The position numbers and the translations under genes were made by a program. DNA of 31,101 bases, from the IMG/VR virus record IMGVR_UViG_3300030406_005308, positions 1 through 31,101 of that record; one strand, 5' to 3'. Positions 6,722 through 29,413 of this stretch are shown here, one piece after another; positions within the stretch are counted from its first letter, which is position 1, and the number at the start of each line of letters is the position of its first letter. The DNA comes from a virus. Below the pieces are notes generated by a model. The model made no database searches. It was not told the DNA's origin and was given only the letters and a program-made list of their open reading frames with translations.

Positions 6722-7261
6722 TTAAGCGTTTTTTTTGTAGTGTTCGTACAAATCATCGCCTAACTTTTCTCCCGCATCCGTATCTGACTTATAATGAACA
6801 TGACCCGCAAGCCTGCTATTTGAAATGTTTTTAGCCGCTTGTTGAAACTCAGCTGTGTGAACTGGGTGCAAGTCAGACAATACATTTGCTATCAATTTTG
6901 CTTGTGCAGAATGTCCAGAAGGAAACGCTGGTGTTTGAGCACTACTCATATAAAATTGCTCAACCTTTATTCCAAATTTTTCTGCAGCTTTATGTGGTCT
7001 TGTTCTATTGTGATAGTTTTTTATTTTTAAAATCACTGGTTTTGATTTTACAATAAGTTCTCCGACTAATTCTCTTGGGTAACTTAATCTTCTTTTTTCA
7101 AATATCCTTTCAAATACGGGGCTGATTTTATCAAACTTGTTAGCATAAAAACTATTCAATGGTATATCATTCAAAGCCATAAGCTCTTGTAGCTCTTTCA
7201 TAGAACCGCTTTTTGGATATTTTAAATATTTGTATTTATCAATAGAAAATTTATCAAACAT
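6722..7261 (-). CDS. PAP2-family (type 2 phosphatidic acid phosphatase-like) phosphatase
   Basis: A 179-residue protein with all three PAP2 signature motifs in order: K-x6-RP at residues 81-89 (KNYHNRTRP), PSGH at 114-117, and SR-x5-H-x3-D at 149-160. Catalytic His117, His156 and Asp160 are present, so an active acid-phosphatase-type enzyme is expected. No signal peptide and no clear membrane helices are seen, unlike bacterial lipid phosphatases of this superfamily, so it resembles the soluble branch. Its ATG shares one base with the portal stop (TAATG), so it is co-translated with head genes. The substrate is unknown. A virion-associated or early-infection role is possible. Confidence 0.85.
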   Translation of the reverse strand: MFDKFSIDKYKYLKYPKSGSMKELQELMALNDIPLNSFYANKFDKISPVFERIFEKRRLSYPRELVGELIVKSKPVILKIKNYHNRTRPHKAAEKFGIKVEQFYMSSAQTPAFPSGHSAQAKLIANVLSDLHPVHTAEFQQAAKNISNSRLAGHVHYKSDTDAGEKLGDDLYEHYKKNA

Positions 7262-9696
7262 TATCTTGGATCAAATTCTGCCATATCGAAACCATCTAAG
7301 CTATCTTCGTTGGATTCAAAATCAATTGCAGGTAAATCGTTCTTTTTCTGTTCAATCATTTTTGATGTTTGTGTAGACTGTTGGCTAATTCTTTTGGATT
7401 TGCCCTTTTCTTTTTCCTTTTCTCTTGCATCTATTTGTGACTGTTCCATTCCTTTGAGCTGCATATTATATGCAAACTCTTCAGCCATTAATGCTAATTT
7501 TAATTCTTTTTCAGCAGTAAGTTTTTGAACTTCGTATTCTGCCTTGGCTTTTTCTAAAGCCATTTTACTTTCGGTTTCCATAGCAACCTTTTGCTGTTCT
7601 GCTTGAGATTTCATTTGTGTAATCTCCATTTGCTGTTGTGCCTGCATCTGTTGCATTTGCATTTGTTGTTGTTGCTCTTGTTCTTGTTTTCTTTTTCGCT
7701 TGAGTTTTAATAATTGATTTGCCATTTTAATATTGTGAATTTCACGAATATCAATAGCATCTTCAAGGTTGATATCTTGTTTTGATAAAGCCATTTGTAT
7801 ATTTTGCTCCAACATTGCTTTTTGTTCTTCATCAGGAGCTAATTCTATAAAAATACCAAAGTCGTATATATACAACTCTTTAATGTCATTTAAAATAGCT
7901 GTATTAAATTTTCCAATTTGCATTGCAAACTCATCCGCAAAATCTGCATATTTTAAAACATCTGCAGTTCTGACTGCTAAACACTCAGCTAAAGTTCTTG
8001 TTATATATAAACTACCATTTAATATATGTCTTGTTGCAACATTGGAATTAAGTGCTGCAAGTTTTTGAACTCCAACTAAAGAATTAGGGTCAGGAGTTGA
8101 ACCATCTCGAGCTTCATTTAAACCAGTAACGGTACGAATCATATCTAAATAATGATTGTAATTTCCAATCAACATTTGTAATTTACTTGCACCACTGTTT
8201 GTAGTTAACTGTTGAATTGGAACTCTTGCGTTATTAAATTCACCATCACCTGTGTAGCTTCTACCAACTACACTACCAGTTTGAAAATATAACCTTAATG
8301 CATCTTCTGGATTATATGCGGCACCTGTGCCTAAATCAACTTCGTTTAACCCATCAGCATCTATAAAAACACCATCTGGCACTACTCGTGCTACAACTTG
8401 TTGTATTTTTAAATGTGTTACTTGAATTAAATCAGCAAAAGGAATCATCCTTTTACATAATGATTCCATAATACCTTTATAACTTCTTGGTGCACATGCA
8501 ACATAGTTTGGCCACGCAAACTGATTGGCTGATTTTGGTCTTACCATATTCTCCATCAATCTCCATTGTAATAGTATGTTTGTACCCATAACCATTACAC
8601 CCTCATACCAAACATCAATTTTCTTTTCTACTCTTTCAAAATCCCCCTCTTGCTGCATTTCTTCAGGCGGGTCAAAAGATGGATCTTTTGCAACTGTCTT
8701 ATATGTACCATCTGCCATTCTCTTTTTTTTGTAAACAAATGAGTTGGTAGTTTTGTAATTAAAATATAATAAAGTTGCTGTATCTCTATAAAACATAGAG
8801 TTCTCATATATTTGTGCAGTATTATAATAATTGTACCAAGATTGACTGTATTTAGATATTTCAGATAAATCAGCGTTAGTAAGCTCAGGGTCTATTTTTA
8901 CCAACTCAGTCATTGGTACGGTTTTAATTTCGCCCCAATAAAAACAATCTTTGAAATAAGGGTCTTCGGTATAACTATAAACCACATTAACTGGGTCAAC
9001 ATATTCAACAGTTACTCCTTGACCTAATAAAAAATTGTGTTTACAAATACCAATGCCTAATGTGGCGATATCATAGTCAACACGCTTTCTTGTTTCTTCA
9101 TAATGATTTTCATCTAATAATGTATTGATTGCTTCTTCACAAGCTATTTCAATCGCTGGTTTATATTTTAAGTTCATAAATAATTCCAGCTCTTCTGATG
9201 TTTCAGGTAATTCTTCTTCTGGTACATTAAATACATCAATACCGAAGTCCTGAGTCATTTGACTTAGAACTGGTTTTGCTACCATATCGGCTTCTACCAT
9301 TTCCTGAAACTGTGTTCTTTTTTCTGCAGATAGTGCATCTTGTGCATACGCTTTTACCTTGAAAAGCCTGTCAGACATTCCGTTTACAACTATGTCAATA
9401 AATTTTGGAATGATTGGAACTGGTGTCCAATCTAAATTAAGATAAGATAAATCTCCATCTACAGCTAATTCATTTTTATATTTAGCTACAGACTGTTCTC
9501 CACGAGCATATAATCTGAGTTTATTGAACTCAGCCCACTGATTATAAAATCGGCATGAACCATTGTCTCTTCTAAACCACTCGTATTGTATGGCTTGACC
9601 TATTTGTAACCCATACTCCGAAGTGTTTTTTTCTGAATCTGAAACAAATTGATCTGGAAAAGCTGCCGCCTTTATGTCTATATTTACCTGCTTCAT
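7261..9696 (-). CDS. Portal protein
   Basis: An 811-residue portal protein, placed directly after TerL with an ATGA overlap. Residues about 60-120 contain 'LRLYARGEQSVAKYKNEL' and 'DWTPVPIIPKFIDIVVNGM', which I recognise as a strong signature of crAss-like portal proteins. The length agrees with that family. The C-terminal 150 residues (from about 660) form a Gln/Lys/Glu-rich coiled coil with a Gln/Met tract around residues 668-690, then an acidic tail (ESNEDSLDGFDMAEFDPR). The portal forms the dodecameric DNA channel at one capsid vertex and docks the terminase. Confidence is high from position, size and signature together. Confidence 0.88.
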   Translation of the reverse strand: MKQVNIDIKAAAFPDQFVSDSEKNTSEYGLQIGQAIQYEWFRRDNGSCRFYNQWAEFNKLRLYARGEQSVAKYKNELAVDGDLSYLNLDWTPVPIIPKFIDIVVNGMSDRLFKVKAYAQDALSAEKRTQFQEMVEADMVAKPVLSQMTQDFGIDVFNVPEEELPETSEELELFMNLKYKPAIEIACEEAINTLLDENHYEETRKRVDYDIATLGIGICKHNFLLGQGVTVEYVDPVNVVYSYTEDPYFKDCFYWGEIKTVPMTELVKIDPELTNADLSEISKYSQSWYNYYNTAQIYENSMFYRDTATLLYFNYKTTNSFVYKKKRMADGTYKTVAKDPSFDPPEEMQQEGDFERVEKKIDVWYEGVMVMGTNILLQWRLMENMVRPKSANQFAWPNYVACAPRSYKGIMESLCKRMIPFADLIQVTHLKIQQVVARVVPDGVFIDADGLNEVDLGTGAAYNPEDALRLYFQTGSVVGRSYTGDGEFNNARVPIQQLTTNSGASKLQMLIGNYNHYLDMIRTVTGLNEARDGSTPDPNSLVGVQKLAALNSNVATRHILNGSLYITRTLAECLAVRTADVLKYADFADEFAMQIGKFNTAILNDIKELYIYDFGIFIELAPDEEQKAMLEQNIQMALSKQDINLEDAIDIREIHNIKMANQLLKLKRKRKQEQEQQQQMQMQQMQAQQQMEITQMKSQAEQQKVAMETESKMALEKAKAEYEVQKLTAEKELKLALMAEEFAYNMQLKGMEQSQIDAREKEKEKGKSKRISQQSTQTSKMIEQKKNDLPAIDFESNEDSLDGFDMAEFDPR

Positions 9697-11969
9697 CTAT
9701 TAAGTAGTTGACTTACTGTACTCTTATTACTGTATCTTGCAAAGTTAATGCTAATTTTCGACTTTTCTTTAGTCGGTGTATATAGGTGTTTTTGATTAGC
9801 CATTATTGCCAAACCACTACTTATAGCGGCATCAAATTTAGTTCTGTTGTTTATATCAAACCTTGCCCAATCTTCTAATGTTCTTTGAAAAAACATATTA
9901 CCAACATCACCTTTTTCTCTAAATAAACCCTCCATGTCATAGCCAATGTATTTCTCAATATAAGATTCGATTGCGGAAGCATGTGCTTGTTTTACATCTT
10001 CAGAAGTATTTGGTATACCACCCAACTCTCTTTCAGTTTTTGAAAGTTTGTTAAATACTTTATCAGGTCTATTCATACAAAAATTTCTATATCCTCTATT
10101 TTTAAAATGATACAATAATCTGGGTTTGTTGTTTTCAACCAATATTGGCATACCATAAAATACACAAGCCATCAACACTTCTTCAAAAAATATCTCAGCG
10201 GTTTGAGGTCTTGCAATGTATTCTAAAAAAAACTGGTTAGATGGCCATTCATCCATATTGAATTTGGTCATTCCATGTAAAGAACCGTTTGACCCTTTAC
10301 CAACAACTACACCAGAAATATCATATGAGTCACATCCAAACGAGCCTAAATGTTCATTGCCTGGATAAAACCTGCCATTTCTTTTTTCAACTTTATTTTG
10401 TTGTTCTTTTTTAGGTAAGTAAGATACAAAAAATCTACCTCTTGTATCTGGGCTCCATAAAACTTCAGTATCTTTTACCCCATTTTTCCAATAAAATTTA
10501 CCCTGAACCACATGTCTTTTCATAATCAAACTATCATTGTAATCTATTTGCTGATATATTTTTGTTAAATTAAATAAAGATTGTTTGCTTTCATCTCTAA
10601 ACGCATGAGATTCTGAACGAGGAAATTGTCTGTAATATTCATTCAAAGCATCAGGATCTAATGCTAACGATTCTACTTCATTTTCCCAATAATTAATTGC
10701 ACCTTGATATATCGGTTCTCCATCAATACCTTTTACTTCCTGTTCGGGATTTTGTAATACAGGATTACCATATTTATCAATAAAACCTTCCATGTTCCAT
10801 TCCATAGGAATAAATAAATTATAGAGACCGCTTTTGGTTTGACCGTTTGCATTTCTGTTAGATGTGTCTGAATCGTAAAATAATTGTTTAAAATTACTTC
10901 CGCCTTTGTCTAAAGCGTTTGATGTTGAACCCATCATACATTTGCCAATAATTTTACTACCCAATCTCAAACAAGTTTTAGTTACTCTCCAATTATTTAA
11001 TATATTTTCTGGCCTTTCCCATTTACCACTTTCATCATGTATAAGCAGTTGTAATTTTTCTCCATCGTAACTATTGTCTGATGTATTTTTCCAATCTATT
11101 GTTGTATCTAAACCATCTAAATCCTCTTCGCCCTGGTCATACATATTCTTCTTTGTAATTTTTGATGCTGGTATTCTGTAGGCCAATTCTGTTTTTGGTT
11201 TGTCCATACCATCTTGAATGGGTTTAAAAAAGAATGGATAGTTATTTGAAATTGGAACTATTTTATCTGTAAACATTTTTTTTGCATCTGACCCTGTTTT
11301 TGATAGCACACCGATTCTTGAATCACGAGACAGTGTAGCTGTATTGACACCTTCACACGAACTCATAAACGAAAATCCAGACCTTCTTATTTTTAAATAG
11401 CATATTCCAAAACTTCTTTTGTCTACCTTACAAGCCTCCCAATATATATAAAACAATCTATTTGCTTCTCTAAAATCTGGATGTCCTACATCAATTTTAG
11501 TCCACTGTAAATACATATAATGAGTGCCAGTAACATATGTTGGTTCACCATTATTTAAAAACCAATGTCCATTCTCTCTTCTATTAAACTCTTCTTCAAT
11601 ATAATTTATCCACTTATCTTTGAAATTAGGTGGTGCATCATACCACTGAAATATTGTTTGTATTCTTTTTAACTCTTTGGGATATACAGATGCTTTCCAG
11701 TATTGGTCTTTAGGTTTTTTGTCTGAAGAAAGTGTTGGTGTAGATGGAAGTGCTATTTTTAAATTATTGATAAAATAAATATCACCAATAGTGCCATCTC
11801 TTGATATTATAATAATATCGTACTTTTCGTTATACCCAGGTTGCCAAGCGTGTGCTTTGTTTTTTCTGGATAAAACATTTTTAGGAATTACATTGTCCAA
11901 TAAAACATAAAGTTTATTTGGATCGTGATTCTGCAAATCCTTTTGGTGTATTTGTTTTTTTAATTTCAT
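9693..11969 (-). CDS. terL: Terminase large subunit
   Basis: A 758-residue packaging ATPase/nuclease. An ATPase domain is suggested by a Walker-A-like 'RRSGFSF' at residues 195-201, a Walker B 'LLIHDES' at 308-314 and a coupling motif 'GSTSN' at 347-351. The nuclease domain shows Asp547 (FGCDSYD), Glu612 (LVENNK) and Asp713 (KFDAAIS). The Walker A lacks the canonical GKT/S lysine, as in several divergent phage terminases in which an Arg near the loop may take over. The first 56 bases overlap the end of the upstream small gene. The ATG lies only two bases after an AGAAGG stretch, probably too close to act as a ribosome site. Confidence 0.88.
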   Translation of the reverse strand: MKLKKQIHQKDLQNHDPNKLYVLLDNVIPKNVLSRKNKAHAWQPGYNEKYDIIIISRDGTIGDIYFINNLKIALPSTPTLSSDKKPKDQYWKASVYPKELKRIQTIFQWYDAPPNFKDKWINYIEEEFNRRENGHWFLNNGEPTYVTGTHYMYLQWTKIDVGHPDFREANRLFYIYWEACKVDKRSFGICYLKIRRSGFSFMSSCEGVNTATLSRDSRIGVLSKTGSDAKKMFTDKIVPISNNYPFFFKPIQDGMDKPKTELAYRIPASKITKKNMYDQGEEDLDGLDTTIDWKNTSDNSYDGEKLQLLIHDESGKWERPENILNNWRVTKTCLRLGSKIIGKCMMGSTSNALDKGGSNFKQLFYDSDTSNRNANGQTKSGLYNLFIPMEWNMEGFIDKYGNPVLQNPEQEVKGIDGEPIYQGAINYWENEVESLALDPDALNEYYRQFPRSESHAFRDESKQSLFNLTKIYQQIDYNDSLIMKRHVVQGKFYWKNGVKDTEVLWSPDTRGRFFVSYLPKKEQQNKVEKRNGRFYPGNEHLGSFGCDSYDISGVVVGKGSNGSLHGMTKFNMDEWPSNQFFLEYIARPQTAEIFFEEVLMACVFYGMPILVENNKPRLLYHFKNRGYRNFCMNRPDKVFNKLSKTERELGGIPNTSEDVKQAHASAIESYIEKYIGYDMEGLFREKGDVGNMFFQRTLEDWARFDINNRTKFDAAISSGLAIMANQKHLYTPTKEKSKISINFARYSNKSTVSQLLNR

Positions 11970-12189
11970 TTCCTTCTAATATGGCTTTCTCATCTTCAAT
12001 TCTTTTTAATATTTCAAAAGCATCAAAGATAGCCAGCTTTTTTGTAGCGGCTGCATTTTTTAATCTGTCTGCAGCCAGCTCATCTTCAGGGTCTGGTTTT
12101 ATAATTTCTTCTTTTGCAACTTTAATTAATTGTCTAACAGCTCGTTCACCAGCCTTTATAATTTCTAATTTAATTTCTTTAATTTCCAT
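11914..12189 (-). CDS. Small helical protein, possible terminase small subunit
   Basis: A 91-residue, almost entirely helical and charged protein directly upstream of terL. It starts MEIKEIKLEIIKAGERAVRQ and contains 'DPEDELAADRLKNAAATKK'. Its end overlaps the start of terL by 56 bases and its start overlaps the preceding gene by 11 bases. Size and position fit a small terminase subunit, which recognises phage DNA and recruits TerL. However, no helix-turn-helix is obvious and I do not recognise a family. A long opposite-strand reading frame covers the same DNA. The minus frame is preferred because it fits the operon spacing. Confidence 0.6.
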   Translation of the reverse strand: MEIKEIKLEIIKAGERAVRQLIKVAKEEIIKPDPEDELAADRLKNAAATKKLAIFDAFEILKRIEDEKAILEGNEIKKTNTPKGFAESRSK

Positions 12190-12751
12190 TTAATTTTATT
12201 GTTATGTGGTCTGTAAACATTCTATACAAAACCTCATCTTCTATTACAAATTCATATTCGCTATCAGGTTTATAAACCACCTCATCCCCAACTTTTAGCC
12301 CTAAATTTAACAGCTCTTTATTTATATATTTTATTGTACCAACTAAAGGTTCTTTGCTACCCGACTTTTGCAAATAAGAATCTTTTTTATCAGATGGTTT
12401 TACAAAACAATATTTATCATGACCTACCCAATCGCCATCTTTTTTATATAAAAAAAACTGGTCATAATCTATAAGAAATAAATTTTCTTTTAGATAACTT
12501 CTTCCGCTTTTTCTTCTACCATACATATCGTTGTAAAATTTAAAAACATTATGATGAACCACCATAATGTCTCCTTTTTCAATTTCACCCTTATACCCTA
12601 ATGGCGTTTCTACAACCTTTGCAAATCTATTAGCTGATTTATGGTCTTCTTCAGATGTGCTTGTTATAAAATCAATATCACCTATTTTTTTTATATTATC
12701 ATATCTCCTGTTTTTCAGTGGAGTAACTATGAAATAGTGTGGTGAACGCAT
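12179..12751 (-). CDS. Double GroES-like (Cpn10-fold) protein
   Basis: A 190-residue protein that reads as two GroES-like units. The first (about residues 5-105) has 'FIVTPLKNRR', a possible mobile loop around 'IDFITSTSEEDHK', 'AKVVETPLG' and 'IEKGDIMVVHHNVFKF', matching the Cpn10 order. The second (about 113-186) has 'PLVGTIKYIN', 'LKVGDEVVYKPDSEYEF' and 'EVLYRMFTDHITI', again with the Cpn10 'GD-V' turn and C-terminal strand. GroES-like partners cap chaperonins, and T4 gp31 is a known phage example needed for capsid folding. The gene sits beside the terminase and head genes, 15 kb from the phage groEL. The family assignment is by eye. Confidence 0.6.
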   Translation of the reverse strand: MRSPHYFIVTPLKNRRYDNIKKIGDIDFITSTSEEDHKSANRFAKVVETPLGYKGEIEKGDIMVVHHNVFKFYNDMYGRRKSGRSYLKENLFLIDYDQFFLYKKDGDWVGHDKYCFVKPSDKKDSYLQKSGSKEPLVGTIKYINKELLNLGLKVGDEVVYKPDSEYEFVIEDEVLYRMFTDHITIKLNGN

Positions 12752-16629: not shown

Positions 16630-18813
16630 TTATGACACCTTAGTGATCAATATTCTTATTGCGTTTGCTGAAGGTGCTGTAGTAAAGTCTACTGTTACTT
16701 GACCAGTAGTGTTTCTTGTTACATCAGCATAAACAGTGTCATAAGTAGAGTTGTCATAAAGCTGCACTATTACATCTCTTGTACCCAACCCATGGTTTAC
16801 TGCTATAGAAGCTGCTCCTCCAATATCTGCAGCATATTGCTCGTTTGCAGCAATACATGTGCTAACTGCAGTACAGAAATCACTTACTTGTGATGCGGTA
16901 ATATCAATGTCTTGTTGAGCAGCTGATTGTGCAACACCAAACTTATCAAAGTTTACAGTAACAGTTTTACTTGCACTACCATAATTTTGTGCTGTTATAC
17001 CTTGGTCAATTAATTGAATCCAACCACTTGCAGTTGCAGTAAAGACAGCATTATCAAATCCAGCAACACCTTTTACTGTAGCCCCATCTGTTGCTCCTAC
17101 ACCCGCTATACTTTGTCCTGACTGAACAATAGTGTAATCAGATAAACTTGGTGTTGAGCTTGCAGCAATTGTACTATTTGCAAATATTAAATCTCCAACT
17201 TCTAATGTCTCTGTAAAGAATGAGCCTCCAGTAGTTACTGCAAAAAAGTCACCCTGGTCTAAAGCAATGTTGCTTCCTCCAGTCAATGCAGGTGAGTTTG
17301 TTGATGCATTATAGCCACCTCTAAATATTCCGACTCCTGCAGCTATAGATTGAACTTGTGCTAAGTTAACACCATCTGTTCCTGCGACTCCATCAGCCAC
17401 ATCTAATAGTTTAAATCCGCCAAAGTCTACATCTGCTTCTGCATCACCCCACTGATCTAAATGTATATCTGCTGGTGTAATTTTTCTGTTACCATTATTA
17501 TTGTCATCATAAAATATTAATGAATCATTAGCATCATCTATTGAGCTGCTTGAAGTAATTTCATTTAAATCAAGCTTTACAGTTACCGTTCTTCCTGATT
17601 CGGAAGTATCAATACCTGCATTTGCTCCTGAGCCTGAACCAGCTATTGTGACTGTTTGGCCATTATTAACTGTACTTGAACCAGAGTCACCTGCTATAGT
17701 CCATGATGACATCGTTCCGCTTCCAGCTGCTGAAATCGTTATTGTTCCAGAACCGTTATCAGCGGTTGTAATACCTACACCTCCTTGAATAGTGAGTGTT
17801 CCTTGGTTAGAAATAGTTGAAGAACCAGAGTCAGCTGCTGTTCCAATATTATCAAATGGCTTATCATTTGTAATGGTCAAAGTATCAGTTGCTGAAGCTG
17901 CGGTTGAAATACCTGTACCCCCAGCAAATGTAGCTGTGTTACCATCACTAATTGTTTGACTTGAACCAGAATCTCCTGCAAGAGTCCATGATGTCATTGT
18001 TCCTGCACCACCATCTGATGCTGCTGTAATTCTACCCTTTGCATCAACTGTAATGTTTGCAGATGTATACGAACCAGCTGTGACTGCTGTACTAACTAAA
18101 TCAATTTGTAGATTATTTGAATTGGATGCTACAGTTGATATGTTATTTGATGTTCCAACAATTTCAACTGTCTCGCCAGAAGTTATTGTTTGAGTTGTTC
18201 CGCTATCACCTTTTAAATCCCAATCGTAGTTTTCTGCAGCTGGGAAAGTGATTGTTTGAGTGTTTACTCCTGAAACATGGCCTTCAGAAGTAGTTGTGAT
18301 TGTGCTTACTACATCTACAGTTCCACCATAACCAGGTGAAGATGAATTTGTAGTGTTGGTTCTTGATACCGCACCATGATTAATAGTTACTGTATCAGTT
18401 GCCCCTACTACAGTGTCGATTATGTCTCCACCCGCTACAGTTACTGTTTCTCCTGAAGCTATATCTTGTGCAGAACCTGTATCTGCATCTAAAGTCCATC
18501 CAGAATAACTTGAGCCTGTAGCTGCAATAGTAATTGTACCATTTCCGTTATTTGTAGTAGATACTCCAGTTCCTGCCGCTATTGTTAGAGTGTCTCCATT
18601 ACTAATAGTGGAGTTAGACCCCGAACTCGCTGCAGCCTCAAAGCTACTCATTGTTCCAGCTCCTATATCTCCTAATATTTGTGATTTTGTTCTTCTTTCA
18701 ATTAATCCTGAAGTAGATACTAATATACCATCATATCCTGCATTAGCATCTTGGTTTATAGTAGCGGTTACTGTACCATCTATATTAAGTGCGTTTAAAA
18801 ATCTTATTGCCAT
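16630..18813 (-). CDS. Fibre protein with DSG repeats
   Basis: A 727-residue fibre encoded 12 bases upstream of the 946-residue fibre. The N-terminus (MAIRFLNALNIDGTVTATIN) matches that neighbour. Residues about 56-425 hold at least six copies of a roughly 45-residue 'W-L-(A/G)DSGS---I--G-TVTI-GG-GIST' repeat. Then comes a stalk signature, 'DFGGFKLLDVADGVAGTDGV', followed by 'NLAQVQ', often seen in trimeric fibres. The C-terminal 60 residues ('IAVNHGLGTRDVIVQLYD ... ILITKVS') form a small beta domain whose pattern recurs at the end of the 248-residue protein just upstream. The role is probably host binding or decoration of the virion. Confidence 0.8.
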   Translation of the reverse strand: MAIRFLNALNIDGTVTATINQDANAGYDGILVSTSGLIERRTKSQILGDIGAGTMSSFEAAASSGSNSTISNGDTLTIAAGTGVSTTNNGNGTITIAATGSSYSGWTLDADTGSAQDIASGETVTVAGGDIIDTVVGATDTVTINHGAVSRTNTTNSSSPGYGGTVDVVSTITTTSEGHVSGVNTQTITFPAAENYDWDLKGDSGTTQTITSGETVEIVGTSNNISTVASNSNNLQIDLVSTAVTAGSYTSANITVDAKGRITAASDGGAGTMTSWTLAGDSGSSQTISDGNTATFAGGTGISTAASATDTLTITNDKPFDNIGTAADSGSSTISNQGTLTIQGGVGITTADNGSGTITISAAGSGTMSSWTIAGDSGSSTVNNGQTVTIAGSGSGANAGIDTSESGRTVTVKLDLNEITSSSSIDDANDSLIFYDDNNNGNRKITPADIHLDQWGDAEADVDFGGFKLLDVADGVAGTDGVNLAQVQSIAAGVGIFRGGYNASTNSPALTGGSNIALDQGDFFAVTTGGSFFTETLEVGDLIFANSTIAASSTPSLSDYTIVQSGQSIAGVGATDGATVKGVAGFDNAVFTATASGWIQLIDQGITAQNYGSASKTVTVNFDKFGVAQSAAQQDIDITASQVSDFCTAVSTCIAANEQYAADIGGAASIAVNHGLGTRDVIVQLYDNSTYDTVYADVTRNTTGQVTVDFTTAPSANAIRILITKVS
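17538..18650 (-). repeat. DSG-repeat region of the 727-residue fibre
   Basis: Tandem units of about 45 residues, including 'SGWTLDADTGSAQDIASGET', 'YDWDLKGDSGTTQTITSGET', 'TSWTLAGDSGSSQTISDGNT' and 'SSWTIAGDSGSSTVNNGQT'. The same unit occurs at least twice in the adjacent 946-residue fibre. Confidence 0.75.
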
Positions 18814-18831: not shown

Positions 18832-19578
18832 TTAATTAAATATTGCAACTCCAGTAAAATTATTAGTAAAATCCAACTGGACTTGATTAACATTTAAATA
18901 TGTTACCGTACATCCAACCTCTTCGGTGGGTGCCGCTGTTGTGCCAAAACTGACACTAACTGCGGGGAACTTATTTAAGTTATGAGTAACGGTATATGTA
19001 TTATTGCCTGTTAACTGAGCACTAACTTCATTCTTGTCTCCGCCACTACTACTATGTTTTAGCAAAGATATAAAATAATCCTTTTCATTGGTTAAGCCCC
19101 CGTTACCCGCAACATAGGTTAAGCCTATGTTAAAAAATGTAGGCTCACCTCCTACTTGTGCCGCAGAGTTCCATTTAAAAATAGCCCACTGCGTTATATC
19201 ATCACACTGTGTTATTAAAACATCAGATCCTGTTAATGGTGAAGTATACCATGTGGATACATTCAGTGATGTGCCACCTTGGTTTTCAGCATACTGACTA
19301 AGAACAAATGTAGTTATTGTGCTGAAGTCTACAGTAAACGCACCACCATTTAAAAATGTAATTGACTCATCTGGTCTTGGTACTCCAGGAGGAGATGGTG
19401 CTTCATTGCTATATTGATAACGCAATAATTGAGACTCAGATGCTTTTTTGTTAATAAAATCAGCAACTGCCTGGGCGGTAAAGTTTTTTGTTTGAAAATT
19501 GTTCTGCGAATCAGAACCAATCCACTTATCACCACCTACTACATTTAGGTCGTTAACATATGTTGAAATTCTTGCCAT
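18832..19578 (-). CDS. Short fibre/baseplate-type virion protein
   Basis: A 248-residue virion protein. The N-terminus MARISTYVNDLNVVGGDKWI and 'GSDSQNNFQTKNFTAQAVAD' share the 'MA-IS ... D--I--D--N---TK--T---V' anchor pattern with the 169-residue protein at 12980-13489. The C-terminal 'YTVTHNLNKFPAVSVSF ... VQLDFTNNFTGVAIFN' matches the 'HNLG-----V------V--DF' end domain of the 727-residue fibre. It thus carries an anchor seen in one neighbour and a tip seen in another, as if assembled from interchangeable fibre parts. It begins one base after the holin stop, so lysis and fibre genes are in one transcript. Confidence 0.7.
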   Translation of the reverse strand: MARISTYVNDLNVVGGDKWIGSDSQNNFQTKNFTAQAVADFINKKASESQLLRYQYSNEAPSPPGVPRPDESITFLNGGAFTVDFSTITTFVLSQYAENQGGTSLNVSTWYTSPLTGSDVLITQCDDITQWAIFKWNSAAQVGGEPTFFNIGLTYVAGNGGLTNEKDYFISLLKHSSSGGDKNEVSAQLTGNNTYTVTHNLNKFPAVSVSFGTTAAPTEEVGCTVTYLNVNQVQLDFTNNFTGVAIFN

Positions 19579-26728: not shown

Positions 26729-27202
26729 ATGAAATTTAAAGGTCTTCAAATCCGAAACACCCGTAGTAGAACTATTCCTACACACGACTATCTTAAATAT
26801 TGGCGAGTAATAAGGATGTGGGTAAAAGCCACTTATAACATTGGTGTTCCTGATTTGGAAATGCTTTTGTTTCTATATAGTGAACAGATCTTTAATAAAA
26901 CAAGTTTTGAAGAATACAACGAACTGTTCTCCTGGGATACCAAAAGATTTAAAAGACTTAAGAAAGAAGGGTGGATTCATGTTTGGCGAGAAAGAAGAGG
27001 TAAAGAAACTACTTTATATGAATTAACATACAAAGCTAAACGCATGATTAATAGTGTGTATAAAAAACTTAATGGTGAGGAGATACCTGAATACACAAAT
27101 CCTATGTTTAGACATGATGCTACTTATATGCAAAAGGTCACAAAGAAGTTTATAAAGAAACTAAACAAGTCTATAAAACAACAACAACATCTCTCTCACT
27201 AA
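26729..27202 (+). CDS. Winged-helix DNA-binding protein, probable regulator
   Basis: A 157-residue protein, the only plus-strand gene inside the leftward block. Residues about 20-110 have a MarR/PadR-like winged-helix layout: 'YWRVIRMWVKATYNIGVPD', 'LEMLLFLYSEQIFNKTSFEE', a recognition-helix-like 'FSWDTKRFKRLKKEGWIHVW', and a wing 'RERRGKETTLYELTYKAKRM'. The C-terminus is Lys-rich with a poly-Gln end (KQQQHLSH). It starts 14 bases after the divergent promoter repeat and runs into the 3' end of groES with a 32-base overlap on opposite strands. It is a likely regulator of the late operons. No target is shown. Confidence 0.7.
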   Translation: MKFKGLQIRNTRSRTIPTHDYLKYWRVIRMWVKATYNIGVPDLEMLLFLYSEQIFNKTSFEEYNELFSWDTKRFKRLKKEGWIHVWRERRGKETTLYELTYKAKRMINSVYKKLNGEEIPEYTNPMFRHDATYMQKVTKKFIKKLNKSIKQQQHLSH

Positions 27203-27428
27203 TAACAGTGTAAGGTTGGTCTTCAATAAACATACTGTATCCAGCAGCTTTATCGTAAAATATAATATCGTTTGATTTAATTACATTGACATCAGTTCCA
27301 GGTTTTACAACCTGACCCTTTTGATATCTATAAGACTCAACATCTTCAGCTGAAAGTAAAAGACCTGATTTGGTTTTCTTTTCTTCTTTAATTTTCTTTA
27401 TTACTATATACTTCCCTATCGGCTGCAT
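27171..27428 (-). CDS. groES: GroES-type co-chaperonin
   Basis: An 85-residue Cpn10 protein. The start at 27428 (MQPIGKYIVIKKIKEEKKTK) is chosen because it follows an A-rich leader and matches the family start. An ATG 33 bases upstream would add 11 residues lacking family resemblance. The mobile loop that contacts GroEL is visible at about residues 16-30 ('EEKKTKSGLLLSAED', with GLLL where host GroES has GIVL). Next come 'KGQVVKPGTDVN', 'SNDIIFYDKAAGYSMFIED' and 'YTVISERDVVVVL', all in Cpn10 order. It pairs with the phage GroEL encoded just upstream. Its 3' end overlaps that of the winged-helix gene. Confidence 0.85.
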   Translation of the reverse strand: MQPIGKYIVIKKIKEEKKTKSGLLLSAEDVESYRYQKGQVVKPGTDVNVIKSNDIIFYDKAAGYSMFIEDQPYTVISERDVVVVL

Positions 27429-27588
27429 ATTTTTTTTCTTTGTTATAAACATAGAATCCATGACTTTCTAATAAAGCTATGGCTTTTTCTATTTCTTCTC
27501 TTTTTAATCTATATGTGTCAAATATTTCATTATGTATTGGCATATCATTAAATTTAAATGTTGAATTATTCTTGTCTGATTCTTGCAT
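27388..27588 (-). CDS. Small protein between groEL and groES
   Basis: A 66-residue frame, MQESDKNNSTFKFNDMPIHN at the start, then a helical 'FDTYRLKREEIEKAIALLES' and 'HGFYVYNKEKKYAADREVYS'. It overlaps the end of groEL by 23 bases and the start of groES by 41 bases, as expected for a translation-coupled gene. No family is recognised. An adaptor for the phage chaperonin is conceivable, but the frame could also only relay ribosomes to groES. Confidence 0.55.
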   Translation of the reverse strand: MQESDKNNSTFKFNDMPIHNEIFDTYRLKREEIEKAIALLESHGFYVYNKEKKYAADREVYSNKEN

Positions 27589-29158
27589 GTGTTACTATTG
27601 CATTGGTTGATAATATTGTGGTTGCTACACTAACCGCATTTATAAAAGCGTTCTTTGTAACTTTCAATGGGTCTATAACTCCTAACTTGAACATATCTCC
27701 ATACTTTTCGTTTTTTACATCAAACCCATAATTTTTATTCTTTGTTAATTTTATAGAGTCTGGATCTATTCCTGCGTTTTTGAGTATTTGTTCAAATGGA
27801 GCAACGATAGATTGCGATAATATATAACGAGCAATTGACCTGTCTTTTAATTTTATATCATCTTTAATCAAGTCCTTTGCAATATTATATAAGGCTAATC
27901 CACCGCCTACAACTATACCTTCATCAAGTGCTGACTTTACAGCACAGACCGAGTCATCGACTCGGTCAAATTTTTCTTTTTGCTCAACATCACTATTCCC
28001 TCCAACATATATACATCCAATTGCACCGCTTAAGCTTGCCACCCTTTCGTTTATAAATTTTTTCTCTTCTGGATGTGTGGTATTTTCTTGTTGAACTTTT
28101 AATTCTTTTATCCTTTCTTCTATCTCATCAGTCATTTGATTGTGCTTTATAATAACTGAAGAATCTTTTCCAACAATAATTTTATCTGCTGTACCTAAAT
28201 TTTGTTCGGTAATCAAACTCAAATCATCACCAGTTTTTTCTGAAAAGTATTTTGCACCAAGTGCAATCGCAATGTCTTGCATAAGCTCATGCTGTTTGTA
28301 TCCAAAGTTTGGTGGTGTGATATTACAAAACTTTAAACCATTACGAACAACATTTGCGGCCAAAGTGTTTATTACATTTTGAGAACACTGACCTATAATC
28401 AAAAGCTTTTGCTGATTATTTATAATTGGTTTTAGTACACTTTCAATTTGTAACAAGTTGCTTATCTCTGTATCGCAAACTAAAACTTTTACATCTTCTA
28501 AAACACACTCATCTTTTCGTTGGTCATTAATAAATAAGTTTGAAGTGTAACCTCTATCTACTTTTATTCCATTAGTAACCTCTGCATAAGTTTCCGAGGT
28601 CATAGATTTTTCTACAGTGACAATTCCGTTTACTCCAACTTTCTTATATGCTTCGCTAATTATATGACCTATCTCTTTATCGTTGTTGGCAGATATTGTA
28701 GCAACATCAAGTAAATCGTTCTTCTTAATTTTTTTCGATTGTTTGTCTAAATCTTTGAGAATTTGTTTTGAAAGACTTTGTATTTCTTTTATAACTTCAG
28801 TTTTGTTTCCTCTATCTGAAAGCATCTCGCTTCCATTTTTAATCAATGCTTCAGTAAGTACGATTGCTGTCGTTGTTCCATCCCCAGCAACATTTGCGGT
28901 TCGAGAAGCTGCATCTTTCATCATCTGAATTGAAAGATTTTCTACTGGATCATCTAAGAAAATACTTTTGGCTACTGTTACTCCATCTTTTGTAATGGTG
29001 ATTCCGCCTAAATGGTCTGGTGATTCTATCAATACGGTTTGACCGCATGGGCCGAGGGTACTTTTTACAGCCTTAGATATTTTTGTAATTCCTTTTATTA
29101 GTTTTTCTCTTGCTGTATTATCGAATGATAAATCTTTTGGAATATATCCTTTTGACAT
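27566..29158 (-). CDS. groEL: Phage GroEL chaperonin
   Basis: A 530-residue group I chaperonin, collinear with bacterial GroEL (548). ATP-site motifs are intact: 'ITKDGVTVAK' (54-63), 'GDGTTTA' (92-98), Asp402 of 'VDDSVCAVKSALDEG' (E. coli D398 position), and 'GIVVGGG'. The usual TLGPKG is TLGPCG (34-39). The apical domain has 'RGYTSNLFIND' (202-212) and 'NITPPNFG', where host proteins have 'RGYLSPYF' and 'KAPGFG', so the substrate-binding face differs. The C-terminus ends HARIRQE without the GGM repeats that line the host cavity. A -7 element lies 25 bases upstream. It probably folds phage capsid or fibre proteins. Confidence 0.93.
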   Translation of the reverse strand: MSKGYIPKDLSFDNTAREKLIKGITKISKAVKSTLGPCGQTVLIESPDHLGGITITKDGVTVAKSIFLDDPVENLSIQMMKDAASRTANVAGDGTTTAIVLTEALIKNGSEMLSDRGNKTEVIKEIQSLSKQILKDLDKQSKKIKKNDLLDVATISANNDKEIGHIISEAYKKVGVNGIVTVEKSMTSETYAEVTNGIKVDRGYTSNLFINDQRKDECVLEDVKVLVCDTEISNLLQIESVLKPIINNQQKLLIIGQCSQNVINTLAANVVRNGLKFCNITPPNFGYKQHELMQDIAIALGAKYFSEKTGDDLSLITEQNLGTADKIIVGKDSSVIIKHNQMTDEIEERIKELKVQQENTTHPEEKKFINERVASLSGAIGCIYVGGNSDVEQKEKFDRVDDSVCAVKSALDEGIVVGGGLALYNIAKDLIKDDIKLKDRSIARYILSQSIVAPFEQILKNAGIDPDSIKLTKNKNYGFDVKNEKYGDMFKLGVIDPLKVTKNAFINAVSVATTILSTNAIVTHARIRQE

Positions 29159-29183: not shown

Positions 29184-29191
29184 CAAATATA
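29184..29191 (-). promoter_or_regulatory. Promoter -7 element for groEL (TATATTTG)
   Basis: A minus-strand TATATTTG, 25 bases before the groEL ATG, in the A/T-rich gap upstream. No -33 TTG is seen. Confidence 0.5.
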
Positions 29192-29391: not shown

Positions 29392-29413
29392 AGAGGCCCA
29401 ATAATGAACCTCT
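29392..29413 (-). terminator. Possible weak terminator after the 69-residue gene
   Basis: Arms AGAGG/CCTCT around a 12-base loop, then TTTCTTAATTT on the minus strand. It lies 41 bases past the stop at 29454. The stem is only 5 bp, so the call is tentative, but the arms begin like those of the terminator at 2799-2833. Confidence 0.35.

Follow-up and report, generated by a model that had tools for sequence, protein, structure and literature searches.

A phage-owned GroEL/GroES pair and a predicted tandem co-chaperonin encoded upstream of the terminase in a virus of Bacteroidota-type bacteria

When genes for a chaperonin and its co-chaperonin lie close together in a viral sequence, the question arises whether the pair belongs to the phage and what kind of folding chamber it would make. 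The window analysed here was a 31,101-bp IMG/VR virus record with portal, terminase, amidase and holin genes, and the host of the virus is Bacteroidota-type bacteria. An earlier note on this DNA had described a GroEL/GroES pair in it, and the pair was confirmed as real. The features of the window are listed in Table 1.

Table 1. Chaperonin and co-chaperonin genes of the window, with their domains, signals and context
Feature	Position	Strand	Evidence or remarks
Portal protein (context)	7261..9696	-	PHROG
Terminase large subunit (context)	9693..11969	-	PHROG
Small overlapping ORF between tandem gene and terminase	11914-12189		
Tandem co-chaperonin-like protein, 190 aa (phrog_13932), upstream of terminase	12179..12751	-	PHROG and predicted fold
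C-terminal Cpn10 domain of the tandem protein, residues 107-190	12182..12433	-	hhalign 97% to bacterial Cpn10; Z 8.8 to GroES
Predicted N-terminal GroES-like barrel of the tandem protein, residues 1-106	12434..12751	-	Fold prediction only
groES (Cpn10), 96 aa	27171..27461	-	Start 27461 or, from relatives, 27428; KTxSGLLL mobile loop kept, roof hairpin shortened
66-aa ORF between groEL and groES, overlapping both	27388..27588	-	Only a few relatives have it; other small ORFs in the gap elsewhere
groEL, group I chaperonin, 530 aa	27566..29158	-	ATP-site residues intact, no GGM tail, inter-ring contacts changed
-7 promoter element, Bacteroidota-type, TATATTTG, upstream of groEL	29184..29191	-	Position conserved in relatives
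Terminator-like hairpin with T-rich tail, upstream of the groEL promoter	29392..29413	-	Consensus scan only

Pfam analysis of the window GroEL revealed Cpn60_TCP1 (E = 3.3e-58) over residues 27-523 of 530, and PHROG analysis assigned it to "chaperonin groEL" (E = 2.2e-137). The protein aligned end to end with solved GroELs and thus had the full-length Cpn60 architecture. The GroES matched Pfam Cpn10 (E = 1.4e-12), and its model had the Cpn10 fold, with Z 11.3 and 40% identity to T. thermophilus Cpn10. The GroES start in relatives corresponded to the internal Met12 of the window ORF, which gives a protein of 85 aa.

The groES gene was located downstream of groEL on the same strand in 71 of the 71 relatives checked. 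TAnnTTTG is the -7 element of Bacteroidota promoters. The bare motif occurred in the window at chance frequency (55 found, 51 expected); at the position upstream of groEL, however, 63 of 65 relatives had it, whereas 5 of 65 had it on the reverse strand and shuffled sequences gave 3.8. In the window it lay 33 to 26 bases above the annotated groEL start, and transcription of groEL probably starts from this conserved element. The terminator-like hairpin further upstream, known from a consensus scan, may insulate the groEL-groES unit. The description in the earlier note of a phage-encoded pair that forms one short operon with a dedicated -7 element was supported.

The gap between groEL and groES ranged from -16 to 545 bases among the 71 relatives and held different small ORFs, which were unrelated and of about 35 to 160 aa in different phages. 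Because both the length and the content of the gap varied, this slot looks like a hot spot for the exchange of small genes. The unit was convergent with a weakly regulator-like gene on the + strand (26729-27202), and the same arrangement was found in MW202828. Inside groEL, the + strand had a hairpin of 9 perfect pairs and a T-rich tail, GACCGAGTCATCGACTCGGTC (27947-27967).

Relatives of the window GroEL were encoded at 78 loci in viral contigs. The window GroEL was 52-74% identical to those of other viral contigs, while its best match in bacterial genomes had 39-41% identity. In a careful tree of 56 sequences, it belonged to a phage-only clade with support of 100/99, and a branch with support of 99/96 lay between this clade and all bacterial GroELs. 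A larger quick tree gave the same placement. The GroELs of Elemovirus and Panino had long branches and their placement in the tree was unsure. In contrast, the GroELs of Bacteroides phage DAC20 and Vibrio phage pv27 nested among host genes. Since the clade was phage-only and far from the bacterial GroELs, the window GroEL has long been resident in phages. The tree thus agreed with the earlier note, which had taken a phage clade apart from host genes as the mark of long ownership; the opposite outcome it had named, a pair nested in one host genus with near-identical sequence, was absent.

A recent capture of host genes, or an assembly artefact, might be considered, as GroEL genes are ubiquitous in hosts and the DAC20 gene does nest among those of Bacteroidales. 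Its probability is negligible in view of the distance to the closest bacterial GroEL (39-41% identity, against 74% for a viral contig) and the synteny conserved across dozens of viral contigs, and the tree ruled out such an origin for the GroEL. In DAC20, the 87-aa ORF preceding groEL was an unannotated GroES with a short roof. The 261 GroEL-positive records of the phage collection included probable host contamination (a Salmonella chromosome contig and short "Listeria phage" fragments), so that this count overstates the number of phage GroELs.

The pair had been presented in the earlier note as uncommon; this was not quite right, for within its own lineage it is no oddity, with groES after groEL in all 71 relatives. 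GroEL has already been described from 36 environmental genomes of marine origin with a relationship to Cellulophaga phages (phi38:1-related) (PMC5332604), and "chaperonin cpn10" is a core gene of Pervagoviridae (PMC8776804). Elemovirus (Flavobacterium), Callevirus phi38:1 and phi40:1 (Cellulophaga) and Podoviridae ctfjg026 (MW202828) likewise had groEL and groES close together and the tandem gene upstream of the terminase, and their GroELs were 37-56% identical to that of the window. Phage phi40:1 differed in that groES preceded groEL and the roof span was longer (22). As GroEL/GroES phages of this group have already been published, the pair itself is of a known kind, and alone it would be one more member of a known phage chaperonin class.

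Comparison of the working parts showed that the ATP-site residues T30, G32, P33, K51, D52, D87, D398 and D495 were all kept in the window GroEL, and these positions were 100% kept across the phage GroEL clade. Positions A109, R452 and V464 hold the two rings together in E. coli; they are conserved in hosts, yet in the phage clade they varied freely or were charged. This inter-ring set was kept in 33% of cells, compared with 77.5% for host-conserved equatorial sites, and 131 of 20,000 random sets were as low. In the window GroEL, R452 was replaced by E, which is among the changes of the engineered single-ring mutant SR1. The GGM tail was absent.

In the apical domain, L234E and E238K were fixed in the clade (27/27), and V263A and V264A were present in 26/27. 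Judged by E. coli mutants, L234E would weaken the ordinary binding of substrate or lid. A general loss at the apical binding sites was rejected, because 5,789 of 20,000 random sets of apical sites were conserved as little as the binding-site set, and the L234E and E238K changes alone are therefore noted. The GroES mobile loop carried its hydrophobic tripeptide (KTKSGLLL), with K29, T30, S32 and G33 invariant in 19 sequences. The roof hairpin of GroES was reduced, as in gp31. It spanned 15 residues, whereas the span is 17 in T4 gp31, 24 in the GroES of E. coli and 19 in roughly half of the host GroES sampled.

Taken together, the changed inter-ring sites, the missing GGM tail, the apical changes and the short roof suggest that the rings of the phage cage would pair more weakly and that its cavity would differ, which agrees with what is known of the EL chaperonin. 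The same features (shortened GroES roof, absent GGM tail, altered apical and inter-ring surfaces) make likelier the putative special folding chamber that the earlier note had suggested. To our knowledge, no lid is known for the EL chaperonin. The chaperonins of phages EL (gp146), OBP and AR9 are also phage-encoded and under reduced inter-ring constraint; those of EL and AR9 are far more divergent (about 27% identity), whereas the window GroEL is a clear group I chaperonin with its own GroES. The EL chaperonin falls into single rings with ATP (PMC7185714).

The inventory of co-chaperonins was larger than the earlier note had it: the GroES beside groEL stood, and a second, tandem co-chaperonin gene beside the terminase had been missed. 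The 190-aa product matched phrog_13932 "co-chaperonin GroES" from end to end (E = 1e-19). Its AlphaFold model, from an alignment of 45 sequences, showed two GroES-like barrels in tandem (mean pLDDT 81.5, pTM 0.76), with a pLDDT of about 51 for the putative N mobile loop in this single model. The top Foldseek match of the model was chloroplast Cpn20 (7ekq_R, E 1.2e-5). A structural aligner paired residues 1-188 of the model with residues 11-194 of that chain (161 residues aligned, Z 10.8), which covered both halves, and the next matches, single-domain GroES structures with Z up to 8.8, aligned with the C-half.

In the hhalign comparison with Cpn10, the C-half reached a probability of 97% and the N-half 16%, and profile comparison of the N-half with the C-half and with Cpn10 gave no clear match. 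Pfam detected Cpn10 in the C-half at a sub-threshold level only, and a PDB sequence search with the protein and its profile found nothing related. As the C-half was identified by sequence and the N-half by predicted fold, the double-domain reading is firm for the C-half and model-based for the N-half; the protein is predicted to be two GroES domains fused in tandem. In the N-half, an HHN motif was strongly conserved and was without an evident GroES counterpart. Putative mobile-loop motifs were observed in relatives of the tandem protein, namely KTESGLEL (phi46:3), NGLILN (elemo) and IGGVEF (Panino); in the Elemovirus proteins, the loop of the C-half was short and without a clear hydrophobic motif.

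The tandem gene was followed by the terminase in 91 of 93 loci and was present in every GroEL-positive relative that covered its site. Among 30 near-complete or partial contigs, 29 had the tandem gene and 24 had GroEL. In all seven mismatched contigs, the expected place of the absent partner, inferred from the gene spacing in the window, was beyond the contig end; loss of GroEL in the six tandem-bearing contigs among them was thereby ruled out. A search of 199 genomes of one Flavobacterium family did not find the tandem gene at 1e-12, a weak result, as the controls were also undetected there. Of the sequenced phage genomes, phi38:1, phi40:1, elemo, MW202828 and Panino had GroEL, the single GroES and the tandem gene, and the complete phages phi46:3 and phi13:2 had the single GroES and the tandem gene without GroEL. 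From this distribution, the lids may be the older part, with GroEL acquired later, or else phi46:3 and phi13:2 may have lost their GroEL.

The most likely reading of these data is that the phage has its own cage for folding virion proteins and two types of lid to close it. A separate short operon would make an ATP-burning GroEL and a GroES lid with a shortened roof, and the two would assemble into a cage in which phage proteins, probably bulky ones of the virion, are folded. The tandem lid-type protein, whose gene lies among the head and packaging genes a short way upstream of the terminase, would give the phage GroEL a further or an alternative lid; where relatives have no GroEL of their own, it would cap that of the host. 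The data establish which genes are present and how well they are conserved, that their ancestry lies in phages only, that the ATP site is intact and that the surfaces have changed, and they include a predicted double-barrel fold for the tandem protein; cage formation, ATPase activity, the substrates, the pairing of lids with rings and the timing are inferences. We think this full explanation, with a phage group I system, a cage for virion proteins and the tandem protein as second lid on phage or host GroEL, rather probable. Against it count the N-half that profiles do not recognise and that is known from a single model, the short C-half loop of the Elemovirus tandem proteins, the place of the gene beside the terminase, which a head or packaging protein with a GroES fold might also occupy, and the apical L234E change.

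The tandem protein might instead belong to the head or to the packaging machinery (at the terminase or portal, for instance), with a borrowed GroES fold and no relation to GroEL, and the chaperonin system would then consist of groEL and groES only. The fixed place of the gene just upstream of the terminase, its persistence in phages without GroEL and the conserved HHN motif of the N-half would fit such a component. However, the C-half was recognisable as Cpn10 by profile, the fold match to a genuine co-chaperonin spanned both halves, the relatives phi46:3, elemo and Panino had putative mobile-loop motifs, and a lid gene that serves head assembly has a precedent in T4 gp31, so that we regard this reading as somewhat unlikely. 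The window system resembles gp31 in the short roof span of its phage-encoded GroES and in a connection to head assembly, which in the window is one of position; gp31 differs in that it uses the host GroEL, whereas the window phage brings its own and its putative head-region lid is a predicted double-domain protein. It is also unlikely that the phage pair replaces or boosts the general chaperonin capacity of the host, under stress or late in infection, with no special chamber. The fully conserved ATP machinery and GroES mobile loop would suit this role, but the clade-wide apical changes (L234E, E238K, V263A and V264A), the short roof, the absent GGM tail and the loss of inter-ring contacts all set the phage cage apart from that of the host.

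Returning to the cage with two kinds of lid, the best structural match of the tandem protein indicates a possible arrangement. The chloroplast and apicoplast Cpn20 has two GroES domains head to tail, like the predicted phage protein, and chloroplasts likewise pair Cpn20 with a single-domain Cpn10; in green algae, rings of seven domains are built from Cpn20 together with the single-domain Cpn10 type (PMC5780408). The phage protein, a putative lid, differs from Cpn20 in that the two were 12% identical with no sequence match in profile searches, and its gene lies beside packaging genes. By analogy, tandem and single co-chaperonins might form mixed lids in seven-domain rings (e.g., three tandem and one single), which would switch the cage between substrates during infection; this proposal is tentative and on balance improbable. 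If it were true, a plastid-like two-lid chaperonin system would exist independently in viruses.

The tandem double-domain layout is otherwise described for chloroplasts, and in the open literature, of which coverage was incomplete, no paper describing a phage co-chaperonin with two GroES domains was found. The predicted tandem protein is the newer part of the system relative to the known pair. As a lid, it would be a second lineage of double-domain co-chaperonins outside plastids, kept by packaging genes even without a phage GroEL. The old question of how a paired-domain lid fits a seven-fold ring would become testable in the culturable phi38:1, phi46:3 and elemo, and so would the question why the assembly of some virions needs a custom lid.

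The annotation of these genes can also be corrected. The tandem protein is entered in current records as if it were an ordinary GroES, and the co-chaperonins of Elemovirus, Callevirus and ctfjg026 are annotated simply as cpn10/GroES or hypothetical protein. In Maribacter phage Panino, the "GroES" of the record is the tandem protein, and the single-domain GroES downstream of groEL (19129-19395) is unannotated. In the window, the neighbouring proteins encoded at 16630-18813 and 18832-19578 had a similar C-terminal region, and both matched phrog_2647 (head decoration).
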